This document shows, piece by piece, positions 2,722-33,186 of a DNA stretch of 33,511 bases; positions within the stretch are counted from its first letter, which is position 1, and every line of letters begins with the position of its first letter. The DNA lies in contig NZ_CFGI01000006.1 in assembly GCF_001347015.1 (NCBI RefSeq), positions 141,940 through 175,450 of the forward strand, written 5' to 3'. Source of the DNA: Streptococcus pneumoniae (lineage in GTDB: Bacteria; Bacillota; Bacilli; Lactobacillales; Streptococcaceae). Made by a program: the position numbers and the translations under genes. The notes beneath the pieces are model-generated. The model did no database searches and was not told the origin of the DNA. It saw only the letters and a list, made by a program, of their open reading frames with translations.

Positions 2722-2780
2722 CTTTATATGCTATTGTATCAATTTACTTATTCCGATTTCTGTTGCTACTAGTTTAATTG

Positions 2781-11709: not shown

Positions 11710-11820
11710 CAATCTAACTCCTTTTACTAATGATGTTTAAATATTGGCATTACTTATTAGCATATATTCTATAACTAGAATACCATATCCTATAGAAAAA
11801 GAAAAGAATTTCTAAAGAAA

Positions 11821-12652: not shown

Positions 12653-12678
12653 AGTTCTATTTCCTTTTCTATTTTTTT

Positions 12679-13272: not shown

Positions 13273-13281
13273 ATCCCCTCC

Positions 13282-14664: not shown

Positions 14665-14667
14665 CCA

Positions 14668-14937
14668 TTACCTCCAAATAATATATAAGGCTACTAGTGT
14701 GGTCACCATCCCAAGAAACCAAACTGTTTTAAAATACCATTTTCTAGTCTTGTGATGAAAAGTAATTCCTGCTAACCAGGCACCAAAACCACCACAAGTA
14801 AGGGCTAAAATGAGTAAGATTTTCTCTGGGATGCGCCAAACTCTTCTCCTTGCCTTGGATTTGTCAATACCATAAATCAAGAAAACCATGACATTCCAAA
14901 TCAAAAGGACTAGAGTAATTTTTTCGTCTAACTTCAT
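14668..14937 (-). CDS. DUF1294 small membrane protein
   Basis: 89 residues with three hydrophobic helices (~8-24, 38-60, 68-88) and the DUF1294 pattern: DKSKARRRVWRIPE after the first helix and GGFGAWLAG in the second. No enzymatic function is known. Its ATG overlaps the leuB stop as ATGA, and leuC begins 3 bp after its end, so it is locked into the leucine operon between leuB and leuC. The position is unusual for a protein with no known part in leucine synthesis; I cannot say what it does. Confidence 0.85.
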   Translation of the reverse strand: MKLDEKITLVLLIWNVMVFLIYGIDKSKARRRVWRIPEKILLILALTCGGFGAWLAGITFHHKTRKWYFKTVWFLGMVTTLVALYIIWR

Positions 14938-15971
14938 AACCTTGCGATAATAGCTTCCGTCATTTCCTTGGTCGAAGCCTGTCCACCTAGATCTCTTGTT
15001 AAAATGCCAGCCGCTAAACTAGCTTCAACAGCACGTTCGATATGCTCTGCATCCTCATAACGTCCAAAACTATCTCTCAACATCATGGCAACTGATAAAA
15101 TCATGGAGATAGGATTGGCAATTCCTTGACCTGCAATATCAGGAGCTGAACCGTGAATGGGCTCATAGAGGCTTGGACCCTTTTCAGAATGACTGGCTGA
15201 TGGCATAACCCCAAGTGTGCCAGATAGAACGCTTGATTCATCAGAGAGAATATCTCCAAAAAGATTCTCCGTCACGATGACATCAAACTTGCCAGGATTG
15301 GTAATCATAAGCATAGCAGCTGAGTCCACCAACTGGTGTTCCAAGGTCACATCTGGGAAATCTTGTGCGACTTCCTCAGCCACTTTTCTCCAGAGTTTTG
15401 ATGTTGCCAAAACATTTTGCTTATCAATGCTGGTAACGATTTTTCTGCGATTTCTTGCAATTTCAAAGGCTTTGCGAATAATTCGCTCCACTTCCTCATA
15501 GCTGTAGTCATTGATATCACGCGCTTTGCGCTCTTCAAGGATATGATCTCCAAAGTAAATCCCTCCTGTCAACTCCCGCACCACGACAAAGTCTACACCA
15601 GCAATTCGTTCTGGTTTGAGTGGTGACAAATGCTTGAGACTGTCAAAGATTTTTACAGGGCGAATATTAGCGTAGAGATTAAGTTCCTTACGGAGAGCCA
15701 GCAAGCCTTGTTCAGGCCGAACCGTTGCTCCATCATACTGAGGACTACCGATAGCCGCTAGGAGAATGGCATCTGCTTCTCTACTTGCCTTGAGGGTTTC
15801 ATCAGGTAAGGGATGCCCTGCTGCATCGATACCTGCACCTCCAAAAGGTCGTCTATCAATCTCATAGTCAAAATCTGTTTTTTCAGCTAGAGCCTCCAGA
15901 ACCTCTAAACCAGCCTCCATGATTTCCGGGCCGATTCCATCCCCTGCTAGAGTTACTATTTTCTTTGTCAT
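14934..15971 (-). CDS. leuB: 3-isopropylmalate dehydrogenase
   Basis: A 345-residue NAD-dependent decarboxylating dehydrogenase of the isocitrate/isopropylmalate family. It opens with the GDGIGPE motif and ends with the nucleotide-binding signature EPIHGSAPDIAGQGIANP. It oxidises 3-isopropylmalate to 2-oxoisocaproate. It starts 11 bp after leuA and overlaps the DUF1294 gene by 4 bp (ATGA). Confidence 0.98.
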   Translation of the reverse strand: MTKKIVTLAGDGIGPEIMEAGLEVLEALAEKTDFDYEIDRRPFGGAGIDAAGHPLPDETLKASREADAILLAAIGSPQYDGATVRPEQGLLALRKELNLYANIRPVKIFDSLKHLSPLKPERIAGVDFVVVRELTGGIYFGDHILEERKARDINDYSYEEVERIIRKAFEIARNRRKIVTSIDKQNVLATSKLWRKVAEEVAQDFPDVTLEHQLVDSAAMLMITNPGKFDVIVTENLFGDILSDESSVLSGTLGVMPSASHSEKGPSLYEPIHGSAPDIAGQGIANPISMILSVAMMLRDSFGRYEDAEHIERAVEASLAAGILTRDLGGQASTKEMTEAIIARL

Positions 15972-15982
15972 AGCCTTCTCCT

Positions 15983-17545
15983 TTACACACTAGGCATATC
16001 GCGATAGGAAACGCTACGTCCCATCTCACCAGCATTCTCTTTTTGAACAAAGGTATTAGCATTGATGTAAGCAATAGCCGAAGCCTTCAACACATCAAAG
16101 TCCAGACCTGCTGCATTAAATATGGTTTCTGTATCTCTGTTTTCAACAGTGACCAAGACCCGAGCCTGGGCATCAATACCATCTGTTACCGCATCAATGG
16201 TATAGGACACCAAGCGGACGGATTGATTAAAGAACTTGTCGATAGCGTTGAAGATAGCCTCAACAGAACCTTGTCCTGTCGCATTAAATTCGACCTTCTC
16301 ACCATCCATATTAGCCAGGCTAACGAGCGCTTCAATGTCATTATCTGCATGAGTTTGAAGTTGTAAATCATCAAAATGGAAGCCTTCTGGGTTTTCAACC
16401 ATGGTTCCAGCTACCAGAGCTCGAATATCTGCATCTGTGATTTCTTGTTTCTTATCGGCCAGTGCCTTGAACTTAGCGAAGAGTGGTTTGATGTCCTCTT
16501 CTGTAAAGTCTAGGGCCAATTCTCTTAGTTTTTCAACAAAGGCATGGCGACCAGACAATTTTCCAAGTGGAAGACTATTACTCTTAACACCAACTAATTC
16601 AGGGGTGATGATTTCATAGGTAAGAGGATTTTTAAGGACTCCGTCTTGGTGAATACCAGATTCGTGAGAAAAGGCATTGCCACCGACCACAGCCTTGTTT
16701 TTAGGAACTGGAATTCCTGAGAAGCGAGAAATCATTTCTGACGTATTGATGGTCTCATTTAGGACAATACTGGTTTCTGCTTGGTAGTAATCTTGGCGAA
16801 TACTGAGGGCTACTGCAATTTCTTCCAAAGCAGCATTTCCAGCTCGCTCCCCGATACCATTGATAGTCCCTTCAACACGTCCTGCTCCGTTCTTGACAGC
16901 AGCAAGGCTATTAGCCACTGCCATTCCAAGGTCATCATGACAGTGAGGTGAATAGATAATCTGACGATCCGTCTTGACATTCTCAATCAAGTGTTTGAAG
17001 ATAGCTCCGTATTCCTCTGGTGTGGTAAATCCTACCGTATCAGGGATATTGATATAAGACGCCCCTGCATCAACCGCTGTTTGAACGACTTGTAAGAGGA
17101 AATCCAACTCTGTTCTAGTCGCATCTTCAGGAGAGAATTCAACCACTTCAAACTTAGAACGGGCATAAGAAACATGCTCACTGATTGCTTCCAAAATCTC
17201 TTCCTTGGTCTTATTGAGTTTATACTTACGATGAATCGGACTGGTAGCAATAAAGACGTGAACTTGTGGATACTTGGCGTCCTTGAGGGCCTCATAACAA
17301 GCATCAATATCAGACTTGACCGAACGTGCCAAACCAGTCACCGCCGTTTTCTTCAAGACCTTAGCAATCTCCTGCACTGCTGTGAATGAGTCTGGGCTAG
17401 CCGCTGGAAAACCAGCTTCGATGGCTGAAATACCCCATTTCTCCAGCTGCCTTGCAATGGCAATTTTTTCCTTGATTGAAAAGTTAACACCCGGTGTCTG
17501 CTCTCCATCCCGAAGGCTGGTATCTAGAAATTCAACTGTTCGCAT
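15983..17545 (-). CDS. leuA: 2-isopropylmalate synthase
   Basis: 520 residues, the bacterial LeuA length. The catalytic HMGL-like barrel opens with [13 protein letters not shown] (residues 8-20), contains [13 protein letters not shown] with the metal-binding histidines, and ends near 270. The C-terminal LeuA dimer domain (~385-515) holds the leucine feedback site. It condenses acetyl-CoA with 2-oxoisovalerate, the committed step to leucine. It is first in the operon, downstream of the leader peptide and attenuator at 17574-17711. Confidence 0.98.
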
Positions 17546-17580
17546 AAGATTTCCCCTTTTCCAAATGTGATTTTAAAAAA

Positions 17581-17610
17581 ACATCTCGCTCAGAAACCCA
17601 AGCGAGATGT
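17581..17610 (-). terminator. leu attenuator terminator
   Basis: On the minus strand a perfect 10-bp stem ACATCTCGCT/AGCGAGATGT with a 10-base loop, followed directly by T7, 35 bp before leuA. The 5' side of this hairpin (CGCTTGG, 17598-17604) can instead pair with CCAAGCG at 17622-17628, which would dissolve the terminator. A further hairpin (17639-17663, GGNCTARTGC/GCATTAGTCC) begins at the leader-peptide stop. Together these are the three alternative structures expected for ribosome-mediated attenuation. Confidence 0.85.
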
Positions 17611-17657
17611 TGATTTACTCCCGCTTGGTAAGCCAAACAGGACTAATGCTTTTTGCA

Positions 17658-17711
17658 CTAGCCCGAGTACCTCAACAACAAAGCAAATTGATTAAACTTA
17701 GCTGTTTTCAT
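17658..17711 (-). CDS. leuL: leu operon leader peptide
   Basis: A 17-codon ORF encoding MKTAKFNQFALLLRYSG, with SD AAGGAGAAAG at good spacing before the ATG at 17711. Three consecutive leucine codons (TTG-TTG-TTG) lie at positions 11-13, followed by AGG, a rare arginine codon. A ribosome stalled there for lack of charged tRNA-Leu would leave the downstream antiterminator (17622-17628 with 17598-17604) free to form and keep transcription running into leuA. The peptide itself is probably dispensable. The mechanism is established for leu operons elsewhere; its use here is inferred from the layout. Confidence 0.85.
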   Translation of the reverse strand: MKTAKFNQFALLLRYSG

Positions 17712-17747
17712 GTTTGACTTTCTCCTTCGTTTGATATCTTGTTTAGT

Positions 17748-17776
17748 ATTTTAGCATAGGCAAAAGCACTTGTCAA
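17748..17776 (-). promoter_or_regulatory. leu operon promoter
   Basis: -35 TTGACA (17771-17776), 17-bp spacer, -10 TAAAAT (17748-17753). The transcript would start near 17741, 30 nt before the leader-peptide ATG. No clear CodY box was identified by eye. Confidence 0.8.
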
Positions 17777-17858
17777 GAAAAAATCCAATATTTTCTGAAA
17801 ATTTCTTCAGTAGAGAATATTTAGCTAATTGAAAGTTATTGAAAATCCTTGAAATATT

Positions 17859-18515
17859 TCATTTTTTAGTGGTTAAGTTCCAACTTTTTTCTATCAATTC
17901 TAACACTTCTTCATCTGATAAAGTATCATCAAGCGCCACACTAATCCAGTAACGTTTATTCATATGAAAAGCTGGATAAATGCCCTTTTGTGAAAGCAAG
18001 TCCGCTACTTGGTCGTGTTTTAGATTGACTGCTTCGACTAGACCTTCTCTACCCTTATCTAGCCTATCCCAAGGTATTCTCATCAAAACAGCATACCATT
18101 TTTGATTGCCTTCATGACGTAACACTGCCGTATCAGGAGATTTCTCCCACAGATATTCCAACTGATTTCCGTACTTTTCCTGAACTTGAGTCATAATACG
18201 CTTAGTTTGAGGACAGATAAAATCCTGCACATCAAAACAAGCCTTCCGAATCTGGTAAAGAGTCTCCAAACAAGCCTCACGGACACTTCCTACAAAACTT
18301 CCACGCATGCTTTCCATATGAACTTGAGGATAGAGATCACCAGTCTCCTGGTCAAAGACTTGAAAACTCACATTATCAGCAGTGATGGACACAGTCATGA
18401 CAAAGTCGCCCTGCAAAATCTGGCTGCTATAAGTCCAGACTCCCCTATTTTCTACAAAACCAAAAGCTTTAGCCTTTTCGTGATTAAACTGATAGGATTT
18501 AAAAATTTCAAACAT
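17859..18515 (-). CDS. MmcQ/YjbR family protein
   Basis: 218 residues. The C-terminal ~110 residues have the YjbR fold pattern: the segment with KWYAVLMRIPWDRL, then VEAVNLKHDQVADLL, then GIYPAFHMNKRYWISVAL, which is the diagnostic HMNKxHW-like motif. An extra N-terminal domain of about 100 residues precedes it. YjbR proteins are small CyaY/MmcQ-like putative DNA-binding proteins without a defined role. It follows cutC by 43 bp and the two are probably co-transcribed. The ATG has no adjacent SD; the nearest AAGGA is on the far side of a perfect hairpin (18523-18546). Confidence 0.82.
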   Translation of the reverse strand: MFEIFKSYQFNHEKAKAFGFVENRGVWTYSSQILQGDFVMTVSITADNVSFQVFDQETGDLYPQVHMESMRGSFVGSVREACLETLYQIRKACFDVQDFICPQTKRIMTQVQEKYGNQLEYLWEKSPDTAVLRHEGNQKWYAVLMRIPWDRLDKGREGLVEAVNLKHDQVADLLSQKGIYPAFHMNKRYWISVALDDTLSDEEVLELIEKSWNLTTKK

Positions 18516-18522
18516 AAGTTAA

Positions 18523-18546
18523 AACTGCTACCCAAAGCTAGCAGTT
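18523..18546 (-). promoter_or_regulatory. hairpin between SD and start codon of the yjbR-like gene
   Basis: An 8-bp perfect stem AACTGCTA/TAGCAGTT with an 8-base loop. AAGGA (18546-18550) sits at its 5' foot and seven nucleotides separate its 3' foot from the ATG at 18515. Folding would bring the SD to a near-ideal distance. It could also act as a weak terminator after cutC, since TTTT follows the stem. Confidence 0.5.
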
Positions 18547-18558
18547 CCTTTCTATTTT

Positions 18559-19191
18559 TTAAAAGACAACCTTAGTTCCGTGCAATTGTGTCACGCCCAG
18601 CTGGTCAATAAAGGTTTGACGGTTGTCAAGGTCAATCCCCCCACCTGGTAGAATTTCAATTTTACCTTTAGCGTGCTCCAAAATTCTGTGATAGTGAGCA
18701 AAACGTTTGTCTAGTGAATCGCCAGACACACCAGCGCGAGTTAGGATACGAGTGACACCAGCTTGACTAAGCCAGTCAATAGCTTCTAACTGGTCTTCTT
18801 CGCTCAATTCATCAAAGGCCATGTGAAAGACAATTTCCATTCCTTTTGATGCAGCTATCAACTTCTCAAGATTTTTCTTATCCAACTTCTTATCAGCAGT
18901 TAAAGCTCCAAATACAACCCCTTGACTTCCAGCCTGAGCAGTCAACCGAATGTCTTCTAGCATAATAGCAATTTCTAGGTCATTGTAGACAAAGTCGCCA
19001 CCACGTGGACGAATCATGGTCATGATGGTCGTATCATAGTTAGCTGCCAATTCAACCGCTGCCTTGGTCACTCCATAGCTGGGAGTTGTCCCACCAACTG
19101 CAAGATTATCACAGAGTTCGATTCGACGAGCTCCAGCCTGCATCGCTTTTTCAAGCAAGGTCACATTTTCAGCACAAAATTCGTAAATCAT
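18559..19191 (-). CDS. cutC: CutC family protein
   Basis: A 210-residue TIM-barrel of the CutC family, recognisable by the start IYEFCAENV, the segments RIELCDNLAVGGTTPSYG and MIRPRGGDFVYND, and the C-terminal ILPGGGI. CutC was linked to copper tolerance in E. coli and enterococci, but the enzymatic activity is uncertain. SD AAGGAG precedes the ATG. An inverted repeat lies over its promoter (19227-19248). It is followed by the yjbR-like gene. Confidence 0.93.
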   Translation of the reverse strand: MIYEFCAENVTLLEKAMQAGARRIELCDNLAVGGTTPSYGVTKAAVELAANYDTTIMTMIRPRGGDFVYNDLEIAIMLEDIRLTAQAGSQGVVFGALTADKKLDKKNLEKLIAASKGMEIVFHMAFDELSEEDQLEAIDWLSQAGVTRILTRAGVSGDSLDKRFAHYHRILEHAKGKIEILPGGGIDLDNRQTFIDQLGVTQLHGTKVVF

Positions 19192-19221
19192 TTGATTCTC
19201 CTTGAAGATTACTTTGAATTT

Positions 19222-19248
19222 ATTATAGCATATTGTTGTGAATATGCT
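19222..19248 (-). promoter_or_regulatory. cutC promoter with overlapping inverted repeat
   Basis: An extended -10 (TGC-TATAAT, TATAAT at 19222-19227) lacks a good -35. In its place is an inverted repeat with 8-base arms AGCATATT/AATATGCT and a 6-base centre (19227-19248). A dyad where RNA polymerase must bind is a candidate operator; the cognate regulator is not in this window. Confidence 0.5.
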
Positions 19249-19281
19249 TTCATTTATATCAAGGAAAACAGATACTATTTT

Positions 19282-19641
19282 TTATTCTTTGTCCGGAATG
19301 ACCTTGAAGAGATAATAAGTGATAAAGATGGTCAAGGCTCCCAGACCGATTTTGACTGGTAAGAGAGGGGCAAAATAAATGGAAATTCCCATCAAGATGT
19401 AGATAGAGACGATAATTTTTTTCTTTCGTTCACGCGCAATAGACTTGGTCTCCCGAAAATCAGCTACATATGTTTGATAGAGCTTGGTATGATAAAGCCA
19501 ATCTTCGAAGCGCTTGGAACTTCTGGAGAAACAAGCAATAGACAACAAAAGGAAAGGCGTTGTCGGCAACAAGGGTAAGACGACCCCAACAATAGCCAAG
19601 GCTAGTGATAAAAAACCAATAATTAGATAGATAAGACGCAT
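19282..19641 (-). CDS. YbaN/DUF454 family inner membrane protein
   Basis: 119 residues. Family hallmarks are GVVLPLLPTTPFLLLSIACFSRSS in the N-terminal half, the RFEDWLYHTKLYQTYVADF segment, then two closely spaced hydrophobic helices at the C-terminus. The function is unknown in bacteria. A BOX element (19657-19851) ends 15 bp before its start codon and may contain or modulate its leader. Confidence 0.88.
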   Translation of the reverse strand: MRLIYLIIGFLSLALAIVGVVLPLLPTTPFLLLSIACFSRSSKRFEDWLYHTKLYQTYVADFRETKSIARERKKKIIVSIYILMGISIYFAPLLPVKIGLGALTIFITYYLFKVIPDKE

Positions 19642-19656
19642 AACTTCTCCTAGTTA

Positions 19657-19851
19657 ATACTCTTCGAAAATCTCTTCAAACCGCGTCAACGTCGCCTTGC
19701 CGTATATATGTTACTGACTTCGTCAGTTTCATCTGCAACCTCAAAACAGTGTTTTGAGCTGACTTCGTCAGTTCTATCCACAACCTCAAAGCAGTGCTTT
19801 GAGCAACCTGCAGCTAGTTTCCTAGTTTGCTCTTTGATTTTCATTGAGTAT
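19657..19851 (+). repeat. BOX element (A-B-B-C)
   Basis: A 195-bp BOX repeat of the pneumococcus/mitis type. boxA (57 bp, with CGTCGCCTTGCCGTA) is followed by two tandem 45-bp boxB units, each starting CTGACTTCGTCAG and ending TTTTGAG or CTTTGAG, and a 48-bp boxC ending TTTTCATTGAGTAT. The termini are complementary (ATACTC...GAGTAT), so transcripts fold into a long stem. It fills most of the 301-bp gap between the topA and DUF454 genes. Confidence 0.93.
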
Positions 19852-19942
19852 AAAATAATCCTCTTCTAGTTTCGCATACAATAATGAATTTTGTCAAGTA
19901 CTAATCAAAAAGAGCCTGAAATTCACTTTCAGGACTCTCTTC

Positions 19943-22030
19943 TTATTTAATCTTTTCTTCTTCGTAGTCACCCTTACTACATACAATCTGCTTGCCACCA
20001 CCACGGACTTTTTTCTCCATGAGGAAGTTGCCACATTTTGGACAGTCACGACCAACAGGCTTGTCCCAAGAGGTAAATTCACAGTCAGGATAGCGATTGC
20101 AACCATAGAAGAGACGATTACGTTTAGTTTTTCGCTCAATGATTTGTCCCTGATGACAACTTGGACACTCAACACCAATCTCTTTCACGATTGCTTGGGT
20201 ATGGCGGCAATCTGGGAAATTGCTACAAGCGTAGAACTTACCAAAACGACCAAGTTTAATGACCATTGGACTGCCACACACTTCACAGTCAAATCCAGCT
20301 GGTTCATCCTTGATTTGGATTTTTTCCATTTCTTCTTCAGCCTTTGCAACCTCTTTAGAGAATGGTTTGTAAAAGGCATCAATAACACGTTGCCACTGCT
20401 CTTTTCCGACTTCGACATCATCCAGCTTGCCTTCCATTTCAGCTGTGAAGGTCACGTTTACGATATCTGGAAAATATTCAACAATGAGCTTGTTAACAAT
20501 TTCTCCCAACTCTGTCGGTTCAAAACGTTTGGCTGCAAGGCGAACATAATAACGTTTTTGAATAGTTTCAATGGTTGGCGCATAGGTGGACGGACGTCCA
20601 ACACCATTTTCTTCCAAGGTCTTGATCAGTGTCGCTTCAGAATAACGAGCAGGCGGTTGGGTGAAATGTTGCTCTGGTTTGCTATTGACCTGTTTGACCA
20701 CATCTCCAACAGCCATATCTGGTAACATCTTATTCTTATCAGAATCATTATAAATGGCAAGATAACCATCAAACTTAACCTGACTACCATTGGCAGTAAA
20801 TTGAACCCCATTTTGAGACAATTTAACAGCCATGGTATCAAAGACAGCAGCTGTCATCTGGCTAGCCACAAAACGATTCCAGATAAGAGTATAAAGCTTG
20901 AGTTGATCCTTATCCAGATACTTAGCGATGCTTTCAGGTGTATTAAAGACACTAGACGGGCGAATAGCCTCATGGGCATCCTGAGCACCTGATGCATTTT
21001 TGACCTTGCTACCATGCTTAGAATACTTACTACCAAAACGGTCCGTAATGAAACTTGCTGCTTCATTTTGCGCTACAGGACTGATACGAGTCGAATCGGT
21101 ACGCATATAGGTAATCAAACCTTGAACACCAGAACCGATATTGATCCCTTCATAAAGCTGTTGGGCAACCATCATGGTCTTTCGAGTACGGAAATTGATT
21201 TTATTAGCAGCATCCATCTGCATAGATGAAGTAGTATAGGGTAAAGGAGCATTGCGCTTGCGCTCTTTCTTATCTACCTGATCCACTGAAAAATCTTTAC
21301 CAGTCAGACGAGACATAACTTCCTTGACCTCGTCATTGCTAGTCAGTTTCAGTTTTTTGCCATCTATCCCATAGAAGGAAGCCTGAAATTGCTTGGTTCC
21401 CTTTTTAAAGACAGCATCAATTGTCCAATATTCTTCTGGTTGGAAGGCATTGATTTCATTCTCACGATCAATGATTAACTTAAGGGCAATAGACTGAACG
21501 CGACCTGCTGACAAGCCCTTCTTAACCTTTTTCCACAAAATAGGCGAAATCGAATAGCCTACCAAGCGGTCCAAAACACGGCGTGCCTGTTGAGCATCGA
21601 CCAAGTCCATATCAATCTTGCGTGGCTCTTTGAAAGCATTTTTGACCGCATCCTTGGTGATTTCATTGAAGACCACACGGTTGGCATCATTTTCATCCAA
21701 GTTGAGAATGTGGGCCAAATGCCAAGAAATCGCTTCTCCTTCACGGTCCGGGTCACTTGCGAGAAAGACTTTATTAGCTTTTTTGGCTTCTTTTTTCAAG
21801 TCATTGATAAGAGGACCTTTTCCTCGGATATTGATATATTGTGGTTCGTAATTATTTTCAATATTAACGGACATACTGGATTTCTTCAAATCACGGATAT
21901 GGCCGACACTGGCTAGAACCTTATAATTTCTGCCTAGATATTTTTCAATCGTCTTGGCCTTAGCAGGCGACTCCACGATTACTAGATTTTTTTTAACTGT
22001 TGATTTTTTCTTTTTTGTTGCCGTAGCCAC
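19943..22030 (-). CDS. topA: DNA topoisomerase I
   Basis: 695 residues from the GTG at 22030 (SD AAAGG 8 nt away); an ATG six codons upstream is less likely because the mature family N-terminus begins at this GTG. The Toprim domain has [12 protein letters not shown] (E20) and the acidic triad in DPDREGEAI (D93, D95, E97-99 region). The catalytic tyrosine is Y308 in [12 protein letters not shown]. Three C-terminal Cys4 zinc-ribbon repeats bind DNA. It relaxes negative supercoils. It has its own promoter at 22066-22094. Confidence 0.97.
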
Positions 22031-23974: not shown

Positions 23975-24823
23975 TTAAAATTCAAATTCCGCAAGAACAT
24001 CTTGCCCGCTGGTGACTAATTTTGCTCCTTCTTGAATCAAATGATGGCAACCGTCTGATAGTCCATCTAAAATACTTCCAGGAATAGCAAAGACGTCACG
24101 CCCTTCTTCCATTGCTCGCTCACAGGTAATGAGACTACCTGAACGCATCTTAGCCTCTGCTACAATCACACCACGGCAAAGTCCAGCAATAATGCGATTA
24201 CGGGCAGGAAAATGAAATTTCAGAGGCTGTTCACCAGGTCCATATTCACTTAGAACTAGATGATCATTTCCGATATAGTCTTGCAAACGTTTATTGGCTT
24301 TAGGATAAAACACATCCAGTCCTGTTCCAATCACTGCAATGGTTTTCCCGCCATTCTGAAGAGCTGCCATATGAGCTGCTGTGTCAATGCCCTTGGCTAA
24401 TCCACTGACAATAACCAGTTCATTTTCCAAGCCCTGAATGACTTTTTCAACTGACTTAGCTCCCTGTTTGCTACAAGCACGACTCCCCACGACAGCTACT
24501 TTTGGAAATTTCAAGAGGTCAAGATTTCCCTTGTAAAATAAAAGTACAGGCGCATCGTATATTTCACTCAAATCCCAAGGGTAACAGTCATCTAAAATAG
24601 AGAAAGATGGAAATTTTTGAAACTCCTTCTCCAAATGCGCATCGTCTATCTGAAAATAACGTTCCATAAAAACGGCTGGATTACGGCAACCTGATATATC
24701 TGCAATATCACCTAACAACAGTTCTTGATCGACATTTTCACCATATTCTAGGACATTCAAAATCTGTTGATTGCTCAAACCTGATTTTTTTAACTTATAG
24801 ATTTCATAGTTTGTGATTTTCAT
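23975..24823 (-). CDS. dprA: DNA processing protein DprA
   Basis: 282 residues from the ATG at 24823; four codons upstream another ATG exists but has no SD, whereas TGGAG lies before this one. An N-terminal SAM-like region (~1-105) is followed by an extended Rossmann fold with VAVVGSRACSKQGA, VSGLAKGIDTAAH, FHFPARNRIIAGL and SGSLITCERAMEEGRDVFAIPG. DprA loads RecA on incoming single-stranded DNA during transformation and shuts off competence by binding phospho-ComE. A ComX box at 24857-24864 marks it as a late competence gene. It nearly matches pneumococcal DprA as I recall it. Confidence 0.97.
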   Translation of the reverse strand: MKITNYEIYKLKKSGLSNQQILNVLEYGENVDQELLLGDIADISGCRNPAVFMERYFQIDDAHLEKEFQKFPSFSILDDCYPWDLSEIYDAPVLLFYKGNLDLLKFPKVAVVGSRACSKQGAKSVEKVIQGLENELVIVSGLAKGIDTAAHMAALQNGGKTIAVIGTGLDVFYPKANKRLQDYIGNDHLVLSEYGPGEQPLKFHFPARNRIIAGLCRGVIVAEAKMRSGSLITCERAMEEGRDVFAIPGSILDGLSDGCHHLIQEGAKLVTSGQDVLAEFEF

Positions 24824-24856
24824 AAATAACTCCATTTCTTTTTCTAGTCATCTATT

Positions 24857-24864: not shown

Positions 24865-24912
24865 AAAAAATCAAAAAACATCCGACTATTTATAATCCCC
24901 CAATAATGAAGT

Positions 24913-24967
24913 ATATTGAAAAATCTCCAGACTAGAGAACTCATTGACGGTTCCTAATCTGGAGATT
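24913..24967 (-). repeat. 55-bp terminator-like repeat, copy 1
   Basis: Identical over 55 bp to 29492-29546 and in the same orientation. On the minus strand it folds as AATCTCCAGA/TCTGGAGATT, 10 bp, with an inner GAAC/GTTC helix, and ends in TTTTTCAATAT, so it can act as an intrinsic terminator for leftward transcripts. It lies just upstream of dprA and marks the left edge of the accessory block. Confidence 0.85.
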
Positions 24968-24996
24968 CCTTATTTGCACTTTTCTTGTACAACCTC

Positions 24997-25183
24997 ATAA
25001 TCTTCGAAAGTCTCTTCAAGCCGCGCCAACGTCGCCTTGCCGTATATATGTGACTGACTTCGTCAGTCTTACCTACAACCTCAAAAACATGTTTTGAGCT
25101 GACTTCGTCAGTTCTATCTGCAACCTCAAAGCAATCCTTTGAGCAACCTGCGGCTAGTTTGCTCTTTGATTTTCATTGAGTAT
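24997..25183 (+). repeat. BOX element (A-B-B-C)
   Basis: 187 bp: boxA 57 bp, two 45-bp boxB units each starting CTGACTTCGTCAG, and a boxC shortened to 40 bp. It ends TTTTCATTGAGTAT. The repeat has run into the 3' part of a small leftward ORF starting at 25213, whose last codons and stop are supplied by boxC. Confidence 0.92.
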
Positions 25184-25213
25184 CAATCCAATGATTTTCA
25201 GTAATTCTTCCAT
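25154..25213 (-). CDS. 19-codon ORF fused to a BOX element
   Basis: ATG at 25213 with a strong SD (AAGGAGGG, 6 nt spacing) opens an ORF beginning MEELLKIIGLIL. After twelve codons it enters boxC (LNENQRAN then stop). The good SD and upstream promoter elements suggest the start of a real gene whose body has been lost or replaced by the BOX insertion, or a genuine small hydrophobic peptide. I do not recognise the product. Confidence 0.35.
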   Translation of the reverse strand: MEELLKIIGLILNENQRAN

Positions 25214-25510: not shown

Positions 25511-25627
25511 CTGGTACTCGTCTCACTTCCGACACCATATAAAAAACAGTTTGTCTACATACTCCAATATCTCTAAAAACAGCGGTGAATCAATATTTAT
25601 ATCTTGGGGATTTGTTTCCCCCCTCAA

Positions 25628-26417
25628 TTACATCAATTGATTGTAGAAATTTAAATCTTCAATGTCTTCTCTAGCCATTATCTTGATTCCACGAAAATAA
25701 CCTAAGTAACTATCAACAGTAGCGTGACTAGCAAGAGTCAATATCATAGCTTCATTATTTTCCACATCGCTTAAGGGACTTTTTGAGAAAAGTCTCTCAC
25801 ACTGCTTTAAGTAATCAATTTTTTTGTGAGCTCTTCTAACTCTAGAACTCACACTGGGTAAAGTCACATCTGTTTGCAAATCAGATAAAAAATTACGTAT
25901 TCCAAACTTACATTCATAGAAAGACAGGGTCTTTGTTCTAGTATTTTTATAAACTACATCACATTTTGTATTAGCAAAAAGCTCTCCACGAAATAATTCC
26001 TTTCGCTTATATTTCACTAATGGTTCAAAAGCTACTTTGCCATCCCTTCCAGGTATTTTTTTCCATCGCATGACTAGATATTCAAAATATCCAGTAAAAA
26101 CAGCCTGATAAGAATGATGAGATACTCTGGGATTTTCAAATAAATTTAAAATCAGGCTTTTTAGGCTATTAAAAACAGTTTGATTAACATTAAAACCATG
26201 CAATCCTTGCTCTCTTTTTAAACTATCTAATCTACTTGAGATTTGTCTCCTAGTATCAGAATTAGTCCTATGAGTAAAAAAGAACTCATTAACTATTCTG
26301 TAACAAGAATAATCTTGAGAAATATACCTATATAACTGAATGATGGTATTATTTCTTACTGGAGAATTAGTTGTTGAAATTTTAAAACGAATATGTTTGA
26401 TTTTATATTTCTGAGTC
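25628..26417 (-). CDS. putative PD-(D/E)xK nuclease of the accessory cluster
   Basis: 263 residues from the ATG at 26417 (MTQKYKIKH). A longer frame to 26587 exists, but the extra part is antisense-like coding inside the preceding gene and this ATG has GGGAG upstream. The first ~95 residues are basic and helical. The C-terminal half has the order expected of a restriction-endonuclease fold: E113 in the helix FEYLV, D154 in KCDVVY, and E169-x-K171 in SFYECKF, with a following helix. It overlaps the preceding gene by 15 bp and is last in the second transcription unit. The catalytic assignment rests on motif spacing only; substrate unknown. Confidence 0.62.
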
Positions 26418-26816
26418 ATTGTCTTTTGACTCCCAAAATCTATAAGGAATAGTAAGAGAATTAAATTTTGTATCGCTGAGTAATTCATACAATCTATACT
26501 GAACATATGGTTCAACAATTTCAAATAAAATAAAATTACTTTCTCTCTCTTTGAGGTTAAAATCATCAATACAACTTGTAAATTCAATGATATGAGATAT
26601 CTTTACTAAAATTGTTTCATCGTCTCCCTCAACGATTCTCATTAAAAAACTAACAGTAGCCTTAAAATTATTTTTATTATTACCTTTTAATTCATCAACA
26701 ATCATCCCAATCTGTATATCTAAATTTGAGTTTGGGATAACTTTTTCCTCAAATGTATTAATATTGAATTTCATTTCTGAAGGATAAATTGCTGAAATCA
26801 ACTCTATTTTTCTCAC
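26403..26816 (-). CDS. probable SecB-like protein (second in the cluster)
   Basis: 137 residues from a GTG at 26816 with strong SD AAAGGAG, 7 nt away. It overlaps the preceding gene by 59 bp in another frame. The C-terminal part (FEIVEPYVQYRLYELL, then SLTIPYRFWE) has the layout of the SecB helix and terminal strand: an aromatic 'PY' at the helix start, about twelve residues, then a hydrophobic 'IP' turn. The preceding part alternates strand-like segments. SecB-fold proteins bind unfolded clients, and some act as chaperones for antitoxins. The match is weaker than for the gene at 27510, so treat as tentative. Confidence 0.5.
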   Translation of the reverse strand: MRKIELISAIYPSEMKFNINTFEEKVIPNSNLDIQIGMIVDELKGNNKNNFKATVSFLMRIVEGDDETILVKISHIIEFTSCIDDFNLKERESNFILFEIVEPYVQYRLYELLSDTKFNSLTIPYRFWESKDNDSEI

Positions 26817-27270
26817 TTGTATTCTCCTTTGGGAAAGATATAATGTAATTATTTATTTCTATACTTTGGTCTGATTTTTCTTCAAATTCCGACTCATAAG
26901 TACTATAAATTTCTTGTAATTTATTATTTAATTTTTCATCCGTCGAATATAATATATTAATCGAAGTTTCGACATCGGCGCCATCATATAGGAAACTATT
27001 TTCCTCACAAATAATCTCATTATAAAATCCAATAAATTTTTTTAACTCACTTGAATATTTTCTTTGTATCGTTTTATCAACTTTAATATGATCTAGGCTT
27101 GTTACCTTGGAACGACTTGAAATAACCTTTGTAAAATAATACTTAAGGCTTTCATCATCTCGTATAAATTTTTCAATAGTGATATAAAAAGCTTTCATAT
27201 TCTGTTTATAATCAGATATTAATTGATTAATCTCATCATTCTGATGAACATTCGATACCATAATATACAT
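26758..27270 (-). CDS. uncharacterised protein of the accessory cluster
   Basis: 170 residues, ATG at 27270 with SD GAGGAGG seven bases upstream and a strong promoter at 27307-27335. I do not recognise the family. It is acidic and mostly helical (long helices at ~10-35 and ~65-90, charged region ~110-140), has no signal peptide or membrane segment, and ends in a polar tail. It is first in the second transcription unit, overlapping the probable SecB-like gene by 59 bp, so the products are likely made together. By position it could be a client, antitoxin or sensor; nothing in the sequence decides. Confidence 0.6.
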   Translation of the reverse strand: MYIMVSNVHQNDEINQLISDYKQNMKAFYITIEKFIRDDESLKYYFTKVISSRSKVTSLDHIKVDKTIQRKYSSELKKFIGFYNEIICEENSFLYDGADVETSINILYSTDEKLNNKLQEIYSTYESEFEEKSDQSIEINNYIISFPKENTSEKNRVDFSNLSFRNEIQY

Positions 27271-27306
27271 AAACTATCCTCCTCATTATTAGCAAGGCTT
27301 CTACTG

Positions 27307-27335
27307 ATTATAACCTAATTCTTAGACTATTTCAA
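27307..27335 (-). promoter_or_regulatory. promoter of the second cluster unit
   Basis: -35 TTGAAA (27330-27335), 17-bp spacer, perfect -10 TATAAT (27307-27312), 37 bp before the ATG at 27270. The -35 sits within the imperfect dyad TTAGTCTTGAAATAGTCTAA. Confidence 0.8.
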
Positions 27336-27509
27336 GACTAACTGTCCAATATAAGCTACAGATAAATCATCCACTCTTAATCAAATTTTATTCAATCCAT
27401 CTACTCATTTCCAAAAGTTTGGATTTCTTATAAAAGGTTGATATACAATGCAAGATATTTTTCTTACTACTTTTACTTTTCCTTATCCTTAATCTAGTGA
27501 GCTAATAAA

Positions 27510-27908
27510 TTATTCTTCTTCAAGATGTTGAGATTTATCTAATAATTCTAAAACATTAATGGTAGGTAGCAACATTGCTTCACTGTTATCAATTGCTGAA
27601 ACTATTGAAACAATAGAACGTAAATAAGGATAAAGAATAGCAGTACCATTTACGTATAGAACATCGATGATATTTTCGTCTATGTTTATTTCAAAATATC
27701 CTATTACAGTTACAGCTATTTTTTTCATGGCATCTTTGTCAACCAAAGAAACACTAAGTTTTACGGCTCCATGAGTATAATCATCTGTATGACCAACCTC
27801 TGCATCAAGGTTAAATGTTTCTGATTCATGGTCATCGCTAGTAAGGTTTCTAGAAACTAATAAGCTATCAACTTCGTATCTTTTTAGATTTATTACAGGT
27901 TTATTCAT
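27510..27908 (-). CDS. SecB-like chaperone of the accessory cluster
   Basis: 132 residues, ATG at 27908 with SD GAGAGGG. The protein follows the SecB order of four strands and a long helix: strands around 3-15, 45-55 (KLSVSLVD), 63-72 (AVTVIGYFEI), then VNGTAILYPYLRSIVSIV and the terminal LLPTINVLELL. This corresponds to the SecB C-terminus, in which a 'FPYxR' helix is followed by 'LxPxNF'. Firmicutes lack classical SecB-dependent export, and SecB-like proteins in Gram-positives or on islands often serve other clients, including antitoxins in TAC systems. It ends the first transcription unit, 240 bp before the next gene. Confidence 0.72.
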   Translation of the reverse strand: MNKPVINLKRYEVDSLLVSRNLTSDDHESETFNLDAEVGHTDDYTHGAVKLSVSLVDKDAMKKIAVTVIGYFEINIDENIIDVLYVNGTAILYPYLRSIVSIVSAIDNSEAMLLPTINVLELLDKSQHLEEE

Positions 27909-27920
27909 ATCGCCCTCTCT

Positions 27921-28739
27921 TTATATCACCATATTAATATTAAAAATTTCTCTATTTATTCTATTCGGTTTAGGTGTAAATTTATAATCAAAAGTTTCTT
28001 CTTGTTTGTACTCATCTTTACTATATACGGCGTCTTTTGTTAGAAATAATGTATTATGATATCCAGTTAATTGAAGTTCATTAATGTTCTGACGTAATTC
28101 ACTAGTATCGATGTGTTTAACCCTATCATTAAATATATCAACGAAATCATCAGTGTTAAAACTTTTAGATGACTTACAATAATTGATATAATCGATTTCT
28201 GGCAAAGGAACAAAAGATGAACTATCAAAATATTGAGGCATTACTATAAAAGGTTTATTATGACTGTCTATTAATCTTCCAAATACTGTAGTATAGGATT
28301 CATCCAGTCTGATTTCTTTATCAAGACAAACCCTTTGTTGTTCATTTCGTAGTTCTTCAAGCAATTCATTTATATCAATATAATTAAAAGTTCCCTGAAC
28401 AGTTAGCTCTTCACTAGGTAAATATTGATCAAGGTCATTTATATCAAGCATACTTTGATTTTTTTTACCTTTATCATATGTGTACTTATAAATATCGCCC
28501 TGAAATAAATCTCTAACATTAGTATCACATTCAATACAAGTTATAATTCGATTATATTCTGAGTTAGCTAAAATAAAGGAAACTTCACCTTTATTCGGTT
28601 TGTAGCTATTAACAAAACCAATTTGTACTCTCCCTGCTAGCTCCACACAAAATAAAACTGGAAAGCTAAAATTGATTATTTCAAAGTAATTATCAAAATT
28701 TTCATTAATTTTTTTTAATATTTTATTCATTAATTTCAT
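27921..28739 (-). CDS. uncharacterised protein of the accessory cluster
   Basis: About 272 residues starting at one of the ATGs at 28742/28739/28730; GGAGG lies six bases before 28739. Every choice overlaps the end of the preceding gene, so translation is coupled. I do not recognise the family. Visible features are a basic N-terminal helix, a beta-rich middle with LFCVELAGRVQIGFVNSY, a pair of cysteines (IECD and earlier C), and a polar C-terminal half. No membrane segment or signal peptide. It lies 12 bp before the SecB-like gene and may be its client or partner. Confidence 0.6.
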   Translation of the reverse strand: MKLMNKILKKINENFDNYFEIINFSFPVLFCVELAGRVQIGFVNSYKPNKGEVSFILANSEYNRIITCIECDTNVRDLFQGDIYKYTYDKGKKNQSMLDINDLDQYLPSEELTVQGTFNYIDINELLEELRNEQQRVCLDKEIRLDESYTTVFGRLIDSHNKPFIVMPQYFDSSSFVPLPEIDYINYCKSSKSFNTDDFVDIFNDRVKHIDTSELRQNINELQLTGYHNTLFLTKDAVYSKDEYKQEETFDYKFTPKPNRINREIFNINMVI

Positions 28740-29358
28740 CATCTTCCTCCAATAACCGGAACTCCTCAGATATATTGCCAAAATTCTCTATCGGCATTCC
28801 CGTTTTATTTTTCCAAAAGGATATATGTTTGAATTTTGGAGCCGGTTTTGTATATTTTTTGCTTCTATGAAGTAAACCATTCCCAATATCAATATCCCCT
28901 TTTAAAATTCTAATCTCTTCAGTATTTCGAGTGACTTTATCTTTTAAGCCAAGTAAAACTTGGTTTGAATTACAGTTATCTACACCATTCTGTACAAGAA
29001 AAAACGAAGTGGAAGAATTATCATTGCTAAATCTGCCTTTATTTTTAAAGTTACAAATTAACTCATTCATTTTTTCAATAGACGACTCGTTAGGATTACC
29101 ATCATGAGAACAATCAAATAAGAATTCATCAATTTGTTCGCAGACATGAGAGGGGAGAAAGAAATAGCTTTGGCTATAACTAGTATCTTCCGTTAATTGA
29201 CTAATAGATTCATAAAAACTATTTCTAACAACTCTTGTCAAATCTTTTACGTTCTTTTCATAACGGTTATCATCATCAAAATGCAAGGTTTCAAATTCTG
29301 TCTCGAAGGCATAAGGAACACCATCTCTATAATCTTCAAATATTTCATGTAACTTCAT
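28723..29358 (-). CDS. uncharacterised protein of the accessory cluster
   Basis: 211 residues, ATG at 29358 with a modest SD (GGAGAT, further AGGTTG). Family not recognised. The N-terminal half is acidic; the middle carries a Ser/Asn-rich stretch; the C-terminal ~50 residues are basic then acidic (HISFWKNKTGMP then EEFRLLEEDDEINE). It is soluble, with no signal peptide. It is first in the cluster, preceded by a promoter (29430-29458) and a dyad at the likely transcript start. Confidence 0.6.
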   Translation of the reverse strand: MKLHEIFEDYRDGVPYAFETEFETLHFDDDNRYEKNVKDLTRVVRNSFYESISQLTEDTSYSQSYFFLPSHVCEQIDEFLFDCSHDGNPNESSIEKMNELICNFKNKGRFSNDNSSTSFFLVQNGVDNCNSNQVLLGLKDKVTRNTEEIRILKGDIDIGNGLLHRSKKYTKPAPKFKHISFWKNKTGMPIENFGNISEEFRLLEEDDEINE

Positions 29359-29407
29359 AAGTCATCAACCTATTTATCTCCATTTTATCGTCAAATCTTT
29401 GAGATCA

Positions 29408-29458
29408 AGTAATATTTATTACTCCAATTATTCTATCAATTTTTTTGGTAAATTTCAA
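29408..29458 (-). promoter_or_regulatory. promoter and dyad of the first cluster unit
   Basis: -35 TTGAAA (29453-29458), 17-bp spacer, -10 TAGAAT (29430-29435). Directly downstream, at the expected transcript start, is an inverted repeat AGTAATA-AA-TATTACT (29408-29423). It could be an operator. The same -35 hexamer and spacing serve the second cluster unit. Confidence 0.6.
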
Positions 29459-29491
29459 ATATTGAATCAAACAATCGCGTCATAACAGGGG

Positions 29492-29546
29492 ATATTGAAA
29501 AATCTCCAGACTAGAGAACTCATTGACGGTTCCTAATCTGGAGATT
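29492..29546 (-). repeat. 55-bp terminator-like repeat, copy 2
   Basis: Identical to 24913-24967 in the same orientation. It lies 68 bp beyond the stop of the surface-protein gene and is its likely terminator (10-bp stem AATCTCCAGA/TCTGGAGATT, T run on the minus strand). It marks the right edge of the accessory block. Confidence 0.85.
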
Positions 29547-29613
29547 TTATTATTTCCTCATCATAGCTACAAAGCTACTCACTCAGTTCCTGAAAGTAGT
29601 GTTTTCTTCAAAA

Positions 29614-32420
29614 CTAGACTTCTTCTTTGAGTTGACTGAGAACAGTCTTGATTTCAGAAATTAGTTCTGCTTCTTTTTGAGGATCTTTTTGCTGGCTATC
29701 TACAAAGGTTCTTGCCTTCTTAGCTAATTTTTTAGCCTTGCCTAGACCTTTTTTATCCTTGTCACTAGCCTCTAGCTCAACTAGAAGTTGATTCAATTCT
29801 CTTAAAAGCTTATCTAGTTGAGAATTTTTCTTACGAGCCAACGCAAAGAGGAGAGCTCCTAGAAGAGAGAGCACTGCAGCTCCAAAGACACCATATAGAG
29901 GGACATCTGTCGCATTTGTAGGTTCCTTGGCGCTTCCTACTTCCTTATTTGAGTTCGACGCAGACTGACTCTTATCAGCTGATATACCAATTTGTAGAGA
30001 ATTGAGAGCCTGTCTAACTTTAGCAAGGAGATCTGCCAATTCTTGAGCTGTTAAGTTTTCATTAGCAAGAGCTGCTTGTGCCTCTCTCAAGATACGCTGT
30101 GCTTCCTCAAGTGCTTCAGGGGATAGACCTGCTATATCTTGCAGGCGACGTTCCAGCTCCTCTACTAGAGACTGAAGTTCTGACTTGTCCACAGCCGATG
30201 GAGTTGTACCTGTTTGGGAGTTCCCTACAAATCCTACACTTCTACGAGCGCGACGTGGAGGAGTTCTGCGATTTCTTGTCGCAGATGGTGGAGGAGTTTG
30301 ATCCTTATCTTGATTAGACTGTCTTCTACCATTAGCTCTATCAAAAGCTTGATCCAGAACCAGATCTATATTAGATAACCCTTCTTGCTTGGCTTGATCA
30401 ACACCACCTTGGTCTTGTGCTTGGTCAATTTGACGGGTCGCTTCGTCCGCTTTAGACTTGATGGCTGCTTTCGCTGCCTTCTTCTCTGTCTCTGACAAGT
30501 TGTTGTTGCGGTCTACAGCTTGGTCTGCGTCGTTCTTCGCTTGCGTAACCGCATTCTTAGCTCCATCCCTATCCACCGGATTCGTCGGCCTGATAGATTC
30601 ATTAGATAAAGGTGAAACAAAGTCACTGCTGATTGGATTATTTGTATTTTGCTGAACGTAAGCAGTAACCAAGCGCAAGGTTTGATCACCTATAGATTCT
30701 TTTAGATATTGAGGCGGAGTAATATACCCCGTTCCTTTTTCTCCTATTAGTGCCCACGCAACAATGTCATAATCCTCTGCATTAGTTGCTGTACCGCCAA
30801 ATGTTTCATTTCTTCCACCTCGAACTAAGAAGACTCTCAACTGACCCTTAGGAGGAATATTAGTTGAGTCTATTCTTCCATTTGGTGGTAAAGGGACTTT
30901 CACTTGCAATACAGGCCTGTCGTTTCCCTTGGCTTTGGCTTTACCCTCCACATCTTGCTGAGCTGTACGCCCTGTCCCTAATGGAGATAAGTCAAATTCC
31001 GCTCGTGGAAGTTGGTACCTAACTTGTTGAATCCTACTCTGTTCATTTCCACTATTTAGGGTTACATTTAAGTTTACATTATATAGTCCGTATATATTTG
31101 AGGGTGTTTTACCCCTAACCGTTATCAGCGCTCTTTTTCTATCGTTAGAATAAGTTGTAGTGATTGTCGCCCATTTCTTACCCCCAACAGTATCCGGAAA
31201 GCCTGTTAATGTAAACTCGCGAATTCCTCCATTTTCTACGGTAGCAATAAATTTCATCGGTGCGTCGTTCAGATCAGAACCATTCAATAATGCTACACTA
31301 TCTCTTCCACTGCCGTCCGAATTCGTCCATCTCCTCTCGTGTCCTGGTCTTCCAGTAGCCAGCCCATAGACAAGTCCAGAAACAGTGTTAGAGGTACTTC
31401 TTCGACTCCTAGAACTCCTAGTTCCCTCTGCACCTTTTTTTAGTTGACTAGCCTTTTTATATTCCTCAAGAGCAGCATTAAAGACCTCCTGGTCAACAAC
31501 CCCATCTTCCTTTGTCTGCAATGCTTCATTTAGTTTATCGTATGCTTCCTTCAGTTTTTGGACTTGTTCTGGATTTTCAGTGCTGGTCTTCAGCTCTTGG
31601 AGGAGTTTATGGATGTTTTCTGATAGAGGATAGCTACCTGGACCATTGGTGTAGTCTGTAGCTTCTTCCGCTGTTTCCTTGGTTTCTTGATTTTCTGCTG
31701 GTGCTGGCGTGGCAGGAGGGGTTAGTTGCCCTCTACGCCCTCGTCCTCGTCTAGGAGTTGGGCTTGGTTCACTTAGAGTCGCCCCACTTCCTTCTCCGAG
31801 CTCAGCTGGGGATGTGAGTCCACCAGCCAAAGCCTTGTTGACCTCCTCAGTCAAGGTTTTCATGACTTGAACTTGGGCATTGACCTCCTCTTGACTGGAA
31901 TTTGGATTTTCAAGAACAGCCTTAGCTCTTGCTAGACCTGCTTCTACACGAGCGTGGAGTTCTTTCATAGAGTCCAGTGTCAGATTGGCAAGTAAAGCTT
32001 GTAGACTGGTTTGTGCAGACTCGGCAAGTGACTTATCCACAGTAGGACGGTTTACCTCTGCTTGTTTTTCTCCCTTGCCTTCTTCGCTATCTTTTACTAG
32101 AGACTTGTTTTCATTTGAAACTTCTTGATTTTCTCGATTACCTTGCTTAGATGGCTCGGGCTGACCTGGGTCTGTATCAGGAGTTTTTTCACTTAGCTCT
32201 TCAGATACCCCCCCCCCGAGGAATCGCTTACAAGGGCGCTGGTTCTAGTCGTTCCACTCTCTGTCGCTGGGGAAATTTCAGGTGTTTGTGCCTGTACTGT
32301 CCCGTTGGCAAAAAACATCAGCGCCGCAACGGCAACGCTAGCAGCACCGAAGTGGTACTTCCTTATTGAGTAACGAAAAACCTTTTCCCCTTTGCGATCT
32401 TCTTTACTTTTTAGTTTCAT
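29614..32420 (-). CDS. YSIRK surface protein, out of frame at a G10 tract (probably phase variable)
   Basis: A single gene split by a frameshift. With one more G the product would be about 935 residues: YSIRK signal peptide (YSIRK at 17-21, hydrophobic core, cleavage near VQA-Q at 44), low-complexity linker, a FIVAR-like helical region, a Ser/Arg-rich linker, a large beta-rich domain (~330-600), a DUF1542-like helical repeat (AKNAVTQAKNDADQAVDRN onward), further helices, then a hydrophobic segment (YGVFGAAVLSLLGALLFALA) and a charged, helical tail of ~70 residues. There is no LPxTG. The downstream part alone could start at a GTG (32040). Last gene of the cytolysin unit. Probably an adhesin; partner unknown. 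Confidence 0.75.
32193..32420 (-). CDS. truncated N-terminal fragment of the YSIRK surface protein as read
   Basis: In the sequence given, translation from the ATG at 32420 (SD AAGGAAGGA, 19 bp after the amidase stop) runs through the YSIRK signal peptide and stops after 75 codons, six codons past the G tract. As it stands the gene would yield only a short secreted peptide. It is part of the gene described at 29614-32420 rather than a separate function. Confidence 0.75.
   Translation of the reverse strand: MKLKSKEDRKGEKVFRYSIRKYHFGAASVAVAALMFFANGTVQAQTPEISPATESGTTRTSALVSDSSGGGYLKS
32208..32217 (-). repeat. homopolymeric G10 tract (phase-variation switch)
   Basis: Ten consecutive C on the plus strand (G on the coding strand) between codon 68 and the continuation of the surface-protein gene. 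The downstream frame (VSEELSEKTPD...) is joined when the tract has 8 or 11 G. G10 gives an early TAA. A tract this long is prone to slipped-strand mispairing. Confidence 0.85.
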
Positions 32421-32439
32421 TCATTCTTCCTTCCTTTTT

Positions 32440-33186
32440 CTATTTGATTTCTTCTGTATAGTCTAGTGCGATCCAGCCCCTACCCGACTTCAGCAAGCCC
32501 CAAGTATAGCCATCTGCTTCTTCTACCTGCATGATAGTAAAAGTCCCAAGAGGACAAAAACCTTGGTCAGGATAAGCCAGGCCTGGACCTGTTCGGATGT
32601 AGAGATCATCATCTACCACACGCACTAGGCGCTCTCCATCCCCATCTCGTGGCTGTTCCTCTTTTGACATTTGGAAACAATCTCCAGCAAGAATCTCAGC
32701 CGCCATCTGGATGAGCCGATTTAGATCAATTCCACCAGGACAATCTGTAGCTGTAAATTCTTGATGAGGATGGATGGTCTCACGATTGATTGGTAAATTA
32801 TAACGATTACAAATATCTGCAATCAAACGTGCTGAGTTCCTGTAGGTTGCCTCTGCAATCGTCCAGTCAGGTTCTCCACGGTTATTTAAGTGTTCAATAC
32901 CAATCGAATGCTGATTGACCTCATAGTTGCCAGCATGATAAGCGACGCTCTCTTCACCAACACACCCCCATATCTTATCAGGAGTCACCTGATAGTGAGC
33001 AGATGTGCCATGACCTGTGGAGACATACCAAGTACTTCTAGCCCCCTCATCACTCAGCCCACCATTATGGTGGATGACAATAGTATCAATATCAAGGCGA
33101 TTTTGATCGCTATTCATGATTTCCTCATCCACATCTGTGATAAGTCCTGAAAACAAATCGCCCCTTACTCTTTTTGTCGCAAACAT
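32440..33186 (-). CDS. N-acetylmuramoyl-L-alanine amidase with SH3b domain
   Basis: 248 residues. An Amidase_2/PGRP-type domain (~30-165) has metal ligands H39/H40 in VIHHNGG and the IHPHQEFTATDCPGG motif (H141, D148/C149). It hydrolyses the amide between MurNAc and the stem peptide. The C-terminal ~65 residues are a bacterial SH3 wall-binding domain (DDDLYIRTGPG ... GRGWIALDYTE). No signal peptide and no choline-binding repeats, so it resembles a prophage-type lysin. The ATG lies 9 bp after the cytolysin stop, with SD AGGAGGG overlapping that stop, so the two are co-transcribed and likely coupled. A role in releasing the leaderless cytolysin is inferred. Confidence 0.88.
   Translation of the reverse strand: MFATKRVRGDLFSGLITDVDEEIMNSDQNRLDIDTIVIHHNGGLSDEGARSTWYVSTGHGTSAHYQVTPDKIWGCVGEESVAYHAGNYEVNQHSIGIEHLNNRGEPDWTIAEATYRNSARLIADICNRYNLPINRETIHPHQEFTATDCPGGIDLNRLIQMAAEILAGDCFQMSKEEQPRDGDGERLVRVVDDDLYIRTGPGLAYPDQGFCPLGTFTIMQVEEADGYTWGLLKSGRGWIALDYTEEIK

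Follow-up and report, generated by a model that had tools for sequence, protein, structure and literature searches.

The stretch of DNA analysed here, hereafter the window, comprises 33,511 nucleotides of Streptococcus pneumoniae (assembly GCF_001347015.1, contig NZ_CFGI01000006.1, positions 141,940 to 175,450) and belongs to a 2.16-Mb genome (G000). The interval from dprA (23975-24835) to a surface-protein gene (29614-32040) is occupied by a cluster of six open reading frames (ORFs), all on the minus strand, which a preliminary description had presented as one defence or toxin-antitoxin-chaperone (TAC) system with SecB-like chaperones and a nuclease. The six ORFs are much longer than expected by chance, as in full they encode 132, 137, 170, 211, 286 and 319 aa, while the longest same-strand ORF in 500 dinucleotide shuffles of 25600-29400 averaged 57 aa and reached a maximum of 103. 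They form two units with an operon-like layout (genes 1-2-3 and 4-5-6; Table 1), as had been described: overlaps amount to 17 nt (genes 1/2), 59 nt (genes 4/5) and 17 nt (genes 5/6), genes 2 and 3 are spaced by 12 bp and genes 3 and 4 by 239 bp. Shine-Dalgarno-like sequences are found before the ORFs, the weakest before gene 1, and the probable starts of gene 2 (28739; the full ORF extends to 28781) and gene 6 (26419) follow such sequences. A promoter-like site does precede each unit, but the view that the units are promoter-driven gains little from this, as such sites are equally frequent in shuffled sequence (29 in the cluster region versus a shuffle mean of 28.4). Similarly, the region is AT-rich (GC 27.5-28.8% in 26001-29000 versus 45-46% in 30001-33000 and 39-46.5% in 12001-22000), but positions 1-2000, at the opposite end of the window, are equally so (GC 26-29%).

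Table 1. Genes, promoter-like sites and repeats of the cluster (window coordinates)
Feature	Position	Strand	Description
gene 1	28723..29358	-	211 aa, unit 1; no family above cut-off
gene 2	27921..28739	-	272 aa, unit 1; overlaps gene 1; no family match
gene 3	27510..27908	-	132 aa, unit 1; CmdC-family SecB-like chaperone by sequence (PD-T4-9_C)
gene 4	26758..27270	-	170 aa, unit 2; proposed chaperone-dependent antitoxin
gene 5	26403..26816	-	137 aa, unit 2; GTG start; SecB fold by prediction
gene 6	25628..26419	-	263 aa, unit 2; probable PD-(D/E)xK nuclease by motif (D154, E169, K171)
promoter-like site, unit 1	29430..29458	-	TTGAAA-17-TAGAAT with TG, upstream of gene 1
promoter-like site, unit 2	27307..27335	-	TTGAAA-17-TATAAT, 11/12, upstream of gene 4
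direct repeat, dprA side	24894-24967	.	copy of dispersed element
direct repeat, surface-protein side	29473-29546	.	inverted-repeat arms 29490-29514 and 29533-29557
second dispersed repeat, ~200 bp	24994-25188	.	inside cassette; copies also near decayed piece in G039

The cluster indeed lies between direct repeats, whose 74 nt are 88% identical and include a perfect 55-nt core (counted by eye), and the repeat is a dispersed one, present in 17 of 197 Streptococcus genomes including G000 (hand count). The same 197 genomes yielded the end of the surface-protein gene in three others. In one of these (G085, locus L106) dprA is joined to the surface-protein gene via a single repeat copy (identities 95% and 91%), i.e. 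it represents the empty site, and the six genes therefore sit in an insertion of ~4.5 kb; in the other two (L105 and L107) dprA had no match within the extracted stretch. The ORF list of the insertion contains no integrase, and our guess is that the cassette moved by recombination between dispersed repeats, in a genus that is naturally transformable. The site next to dprA is variable in the genus, since, among the genomes covered, the one with the closest DprA (G001, locus L088) carries different genes upstream of dprA (choline-metabolism-like by eye).

S. cristatus S22 (seen as G184:C14 and as NZ_VSJJ01000021.1, presumably one record) has homologues of genes 4, 5 and 6, arranged as in the window and with identities of 42, 53 and 48%, and the Streptococcus-genus searches gave no match for genes 1, 2 and 3 in that genome. 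Unit 2 thus exists without unit 1, and the claim of one six-gene system is not supported. A divergent ORF upstream of the S. cristatus unit appears by eye to encode an integrase-like tyrosine recombinase. The units were also linked in a second genome (G039), where a decayed piece retains their junction in two blocks ~98 bp apart near the same ~200-bp dispersed repeat: the first begins inside gene 3, spans the spacer and ends at the gene 4 start (91%), the second lies further into gene 4 (95%). Other occurrences are few. Among the 197 genomes gene 1 matched in two (one weak, taken as chance), gene 2 in one, gene 6 in three (one a weak partial match with stops, taken as chance) and gene 4 in seven, of which four weak ones were taken as chance and G000, G039 and G184 remain. 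At the order level gene 2 matched in 6 of 395 genomes (five weak, taken as chance) and gene 5 in 1 of 198, G184 presumably lying outside that sample. Co-occurrence elsewhere, proposed earlier as a check, is thus seen in part, in one homologue of unit 2 and in one decayed junction of the two units.

By sequence, gene 3 is a CmdC-family SecB-like chaperone, with matches to PADLOC PD-T4-9_C (2.2e-15) and PHROG 21664 (1.7e-23) and one to Pfam SecB (1.4e-4) that falls below the Pfam cut-off. PD-T4-9 is the system CmdTAC (passages of PMC9519451), in which the chaperone CmdC senses the phage capsid protein: new capsid protein draws CmdC off, ClpP degrades CmdA, and CmdT is free (passages of PMC11618068). 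In the 197 Streptococcus genomes gene 3 matched 18 places, 12 of which are uninterrupted triplets of an ORF resembling an ADP-ribosyltransferase (ART; recognised by motif, by eye), a short antitoxin and a SecB-type chaperone; the other six comprise one disrupted ART-like ORF, the window, two pieces in G039, and L025 and L026, which were left out. One of the 12 lies in the same genome on another contig (L002; G000:C9, 327-1764) and consists of an ART-like ORF, an antitoxin ending in VAA and a CmdC-like chaperone, making it the third SecB-type module of G000. CmdC relatives were also covered in 46 viral loci. A motif rule recognised an ART-like ORF upstream in 30 of them, inspection by eye did so in another 8, and the remaining 8 are L117, L127, L132, L136, L139, L142, L146 and L148. 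Genes 1, 2, 4, 5 and 6 had no protein-level match in the 46 loci at E 0.01. On three viral contigs (L127, L132 and L136; ~3110-4320) a HEPN-like ORF and a second ORF are followed by a CmdC-type chaperone. Pfam HEPN scored 0.0019 for L127 and 7.7e-4 for L136, both below cut-off, L132 is HEPN-like by eye, and the second ORFs end in LAA or ALAA (L127, L136) and LLAA (L132); these loci are possible HEPN TAC systems.

Unit 1 resembles CmdTAC in having a CmdC-family chaperone third, behind two genes, but its genes 1 and 2 are, as judged from their sequences, unlike the CmdT and CmdA sets. As single-sequence queries against 9 aligned CmdT-like proteins they gave hhalign probabilities of 0.9 and 1.4%. 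The gene 2 alignment covers 22 columns at the YHGT region of CmdT; gene 2 has YHNT there (at about residue 225-235), lacks LGxGxY, and its sequence after YHNT is by eye too short for the rest of the CmdT domain. The C-termini read EINE (gene 1) and NMVI (gene 2), which differ from the AA tail seen in CmdA-like proteins. A CmdT ADP-ribosyltransferase was thus not recognised in unit 1, genes 1 and 2 showing neither the CmdT motif nor a link to the CmdT profile; the PADLOC CmdT toxin model itself, though, detects only 2 of 7 CmdT-like proteins.

A more specific form of the TAC reading of unit 1 is that genes 1 and 2 constitute a PD-T4-10-type toxin-antitoxin pair (gene 1 as A, gene 2 as B) that recruited a CmdC-type chaperone, which we regard as possible though rather doubtful. 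PD-T4-10 is described, in passages of PMC9519451, as a two-gene system with overlapping ORFs, the antitoxin first and the toxin second, and without a chaperone; in the literature covered, the original PD-T4-10 paper alone turned up for the combination with one. Genes 1 and 2 overlap likewise, and a viral locus (L146; IMGVR_UViG_3300033463_005351, 2761-4225) shows the order in question, its genes one to three matching PD-T4-10_A (E 0.0087), PD-T4-10_B (E 3.8e-6) and PD-T4-9_C (E 1.8e-12). CmdC-type chaperones can therefore accompany PD-T4-10-like genes, and the locus may be a TAC version of PD-T4-10. For gene 1 and the first gene of L146, BLASTP gives E 0.004 for the single pair, and 9 of 1000 shuffles reach the local and 4 of 1000 the semiglobal alignment score. 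When the search covers the full set of 484 ORFs from the 46 viral loci, the match falls to E 1.9, fourth by BLASTP, and it is not among the six phmmer rows listed. The similarity is thus suggestive but not significant after correction for the ORFs searched. The similarity of gene 2 to the second viral gene is not significant (local score reached by 542, semiglobal by 81 of 1000; for the N-terminal parts 269 and 30), neither gene has a PADLOC row at E 5, and the PD-T4-10_B model had no match in G000, in a search that gave no match anywhere. Adjacency to the chaperone would make gene 2 instead of gene 1 the chaperone client.

PADLOC returned zero rows for unit 2. The model of gene 5 shows four strands followed by a long helix (pLDDT 70, pTM 0.65), and the top four PDB rows of a fold search with it are all SecB, including Rv1957 with the ChAD peptide, so that by predicted structure alone gene 5 would have a SecB fold. 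The expectation of a SecB-like chaperone in both units is thereby supported, for gene 3 by sequence and for gene 5 by predicted fold, and with it the likeness to TAC systems. Gene 6 carries one D154-x14-E169-x-K171 motif (D-x14-ExK) that is conserved between the two homologues and lies in the best-conserved 26-residue window of the protein (21/26 identical versus 122/263 overall), and is by this motif probably a PD-(D/E)xK nuclease. The order of elements in its model of pLDDT 47.7 (H101-109, E112-121, E152-156, E166-175, H192-212, E219-228) would fit a restriction-endonuclease-like core. Searches of Pfam, NCBIfam, PADLOC and PHROG revealed no antitoxin domain in gene 4; it shares 62/138 core residues with its S. 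cristatus homologue and 8/29 at the C-terminal end, and a diverged end is what would be expected of a variable chaperone-dependent tail.

Taken together, we slightly favour the view that the cassette consists of two separable three-gene modules that would work like TAC abortive-infection systems. The genes, their operon-like layout, the empty site, the separability of unit 2, the CmdC match of gene 3, the predicted fold of gene 5 and the conserved motif of gene 6 are what the analysis shows; the functional steps and the toxin and antitoxin assignments we infer, for unit 2 by analogy with CmdTAC and with HigBAC, for which the activator is the major tail protein of lambda (Mets et al. 2024, cited in passages of PMC11980606). 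The role of an unstable antitoxin would fall to gene 4, with a tail that depends on gene 5 to remain folded, and gene 6 would be a nuclease-type toxin restrained by gene 4. During infection a newly made phage structural protein would occupy the gene 5 chaperone, upon which gene 4 would be degraded and the gene 6 nuclease freed to cut nucleic acid, halting infection. Gene 3, the CmdC-like chaperone of unit 1, would likewise guard gene 1 or gene 2, with an effector that would differ from the CmdTAC ADP-ribosyltransferase.

Several observations weigh against this view. The hhalign comparison of gene 5 with CmdC showed no profile link (probability 0.9%; score 16.1, which 6 of 100 column shuffles also attained), and the pLDDT of its five models spans 34.7 to 70.2. 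With a pLDDT of 47.7 the model of gene 6 is poor, and the matches found with it lend no support to a nuclease fold; the probable nuclease assignment comes from the motif. The check by structure prediction proposed earlier did give a SecB fold, for gene 5. Genes 1, 2 and 4 stay under every Pfam and NCBIfam cut-off and lack a PADLOC row (rows only of E at least 0.03), their PHROG rows being weak and of function-unknown families (best 0.0042). None of the candidate antitoxins has an AA tail, although this tail is not universal since it occurs in 6 of 9 CmdA-like proteins. The chaperone gene is central in unit 2 and last in the other loci examined, intact unit 2 elsewhere amounts to the single homologue in S. 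cristatus, and the gene 4 copy in G039 shows 3 silent and 9 amino-acid changes in 94 codons, i.e. no sign of strong constraint.

The central position of gene 5, which overlaps both of its neighbours, and the lack of a recognisable antitoxin domain in gene 4 would also suit a unit 2 that is no toxin-antitoxin system, in which the SecB-fold protein would serve as a sensor and directly hold or deliver the nuclease, with gene 4 as an adaptor. We consider this unlikely, as in the published systems covered (passages including those of PMC11618068, PMC9519451 and PMC11980606) it is an antitoxin on which the SecB-type chaperone of the operon acts. To a selfish addiction or stabilisation element without an anti-phage role we give equally little credence: its sparse distribution, the decayed copy, the flanking dispersed repeats and the integrase-like ORF next to unit 2 in S. 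cristatus are in line with it, but the related CmdTAC is proven phage defence (passages of PMC11618068), and a McrBC-type restriction pair (McrBC component, 9.4e-82, and AAA ATPase; 8487-11712) lies ~14 kb from the cassette. The defence reading of the preliminary description is strengthened by the membership of gene 3 in the CmdTAC chaperone family. That genes 3 and 5 encode SecB-like chaperones with a general or export role, lying beside unrelated genes, is hardly credible in view of the overlapping operon-like genes, their patchy presence and the CmdC family match of gene 3. The neighbouring surface-protein gene looks interrupted, since by eye a YSIRK-type start (32193-32420) and the large ORF (29614-32040) are in different frames (region 29614-32420).

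The two-module TAC view leaves the cassette related to a known kind of system but new in its partners, and we do not assign it to CmdTAC. Like TAC systems in general, it has a dedicated SecB-fold chaperone in the operon, predicted in the case of gene 5, and like HigBAC, MqsRAC and Rv1955-1957 it would combine this chaperone with putative toxin and antitoxin partners. Unit 2 differs from these classical systems by its probable PD-(D/E)xK protein and central chaperone gene; the TAC toxins named in the literature covered (passages of PMC11618068, PMC9519451 and PMC11980606) are endoribonucleases or ART. Unit 1 differs from PD-T4-10 by its chaperone, the similarity of genes 1 and 2 to that pair not being established and gene 1 being weakly similar via L146. 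No description of this arrangement was found in the literature covered (titles and starts of abstracts, few subscription papers, no preprints, and passages including those of PMC4257090, PMC5105189 and PMC10440598). We tentatively propose, as a bolder idea that may well fail, that unit 2 represents a new class of chaperone-gated abortive infection, with a PD-(D/E)xK nuclease gated by a SecB-fold protein that has diverged strongly and whose gene lies between those of antitoxin and toxin, that unit 1 represents a TAC whose effector is new, and that one mobile cassette thereby stacks two alarms for different phage proteins in a genome that holds a third (CmdTAC). If true, SecB-type chaperones would be general, exchangeable phage sensors attached to unrelated killer enzymes, including nucleases, and SecB-type sensing would not be peculiar to a few mRNA-attacking toxins. 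Gene 5 suggests, furthermore, that such chaperones may diverge past sequence detection, because of which defence catalogues can miss them, as the blank PADLOC result for unit 2 illustrates.

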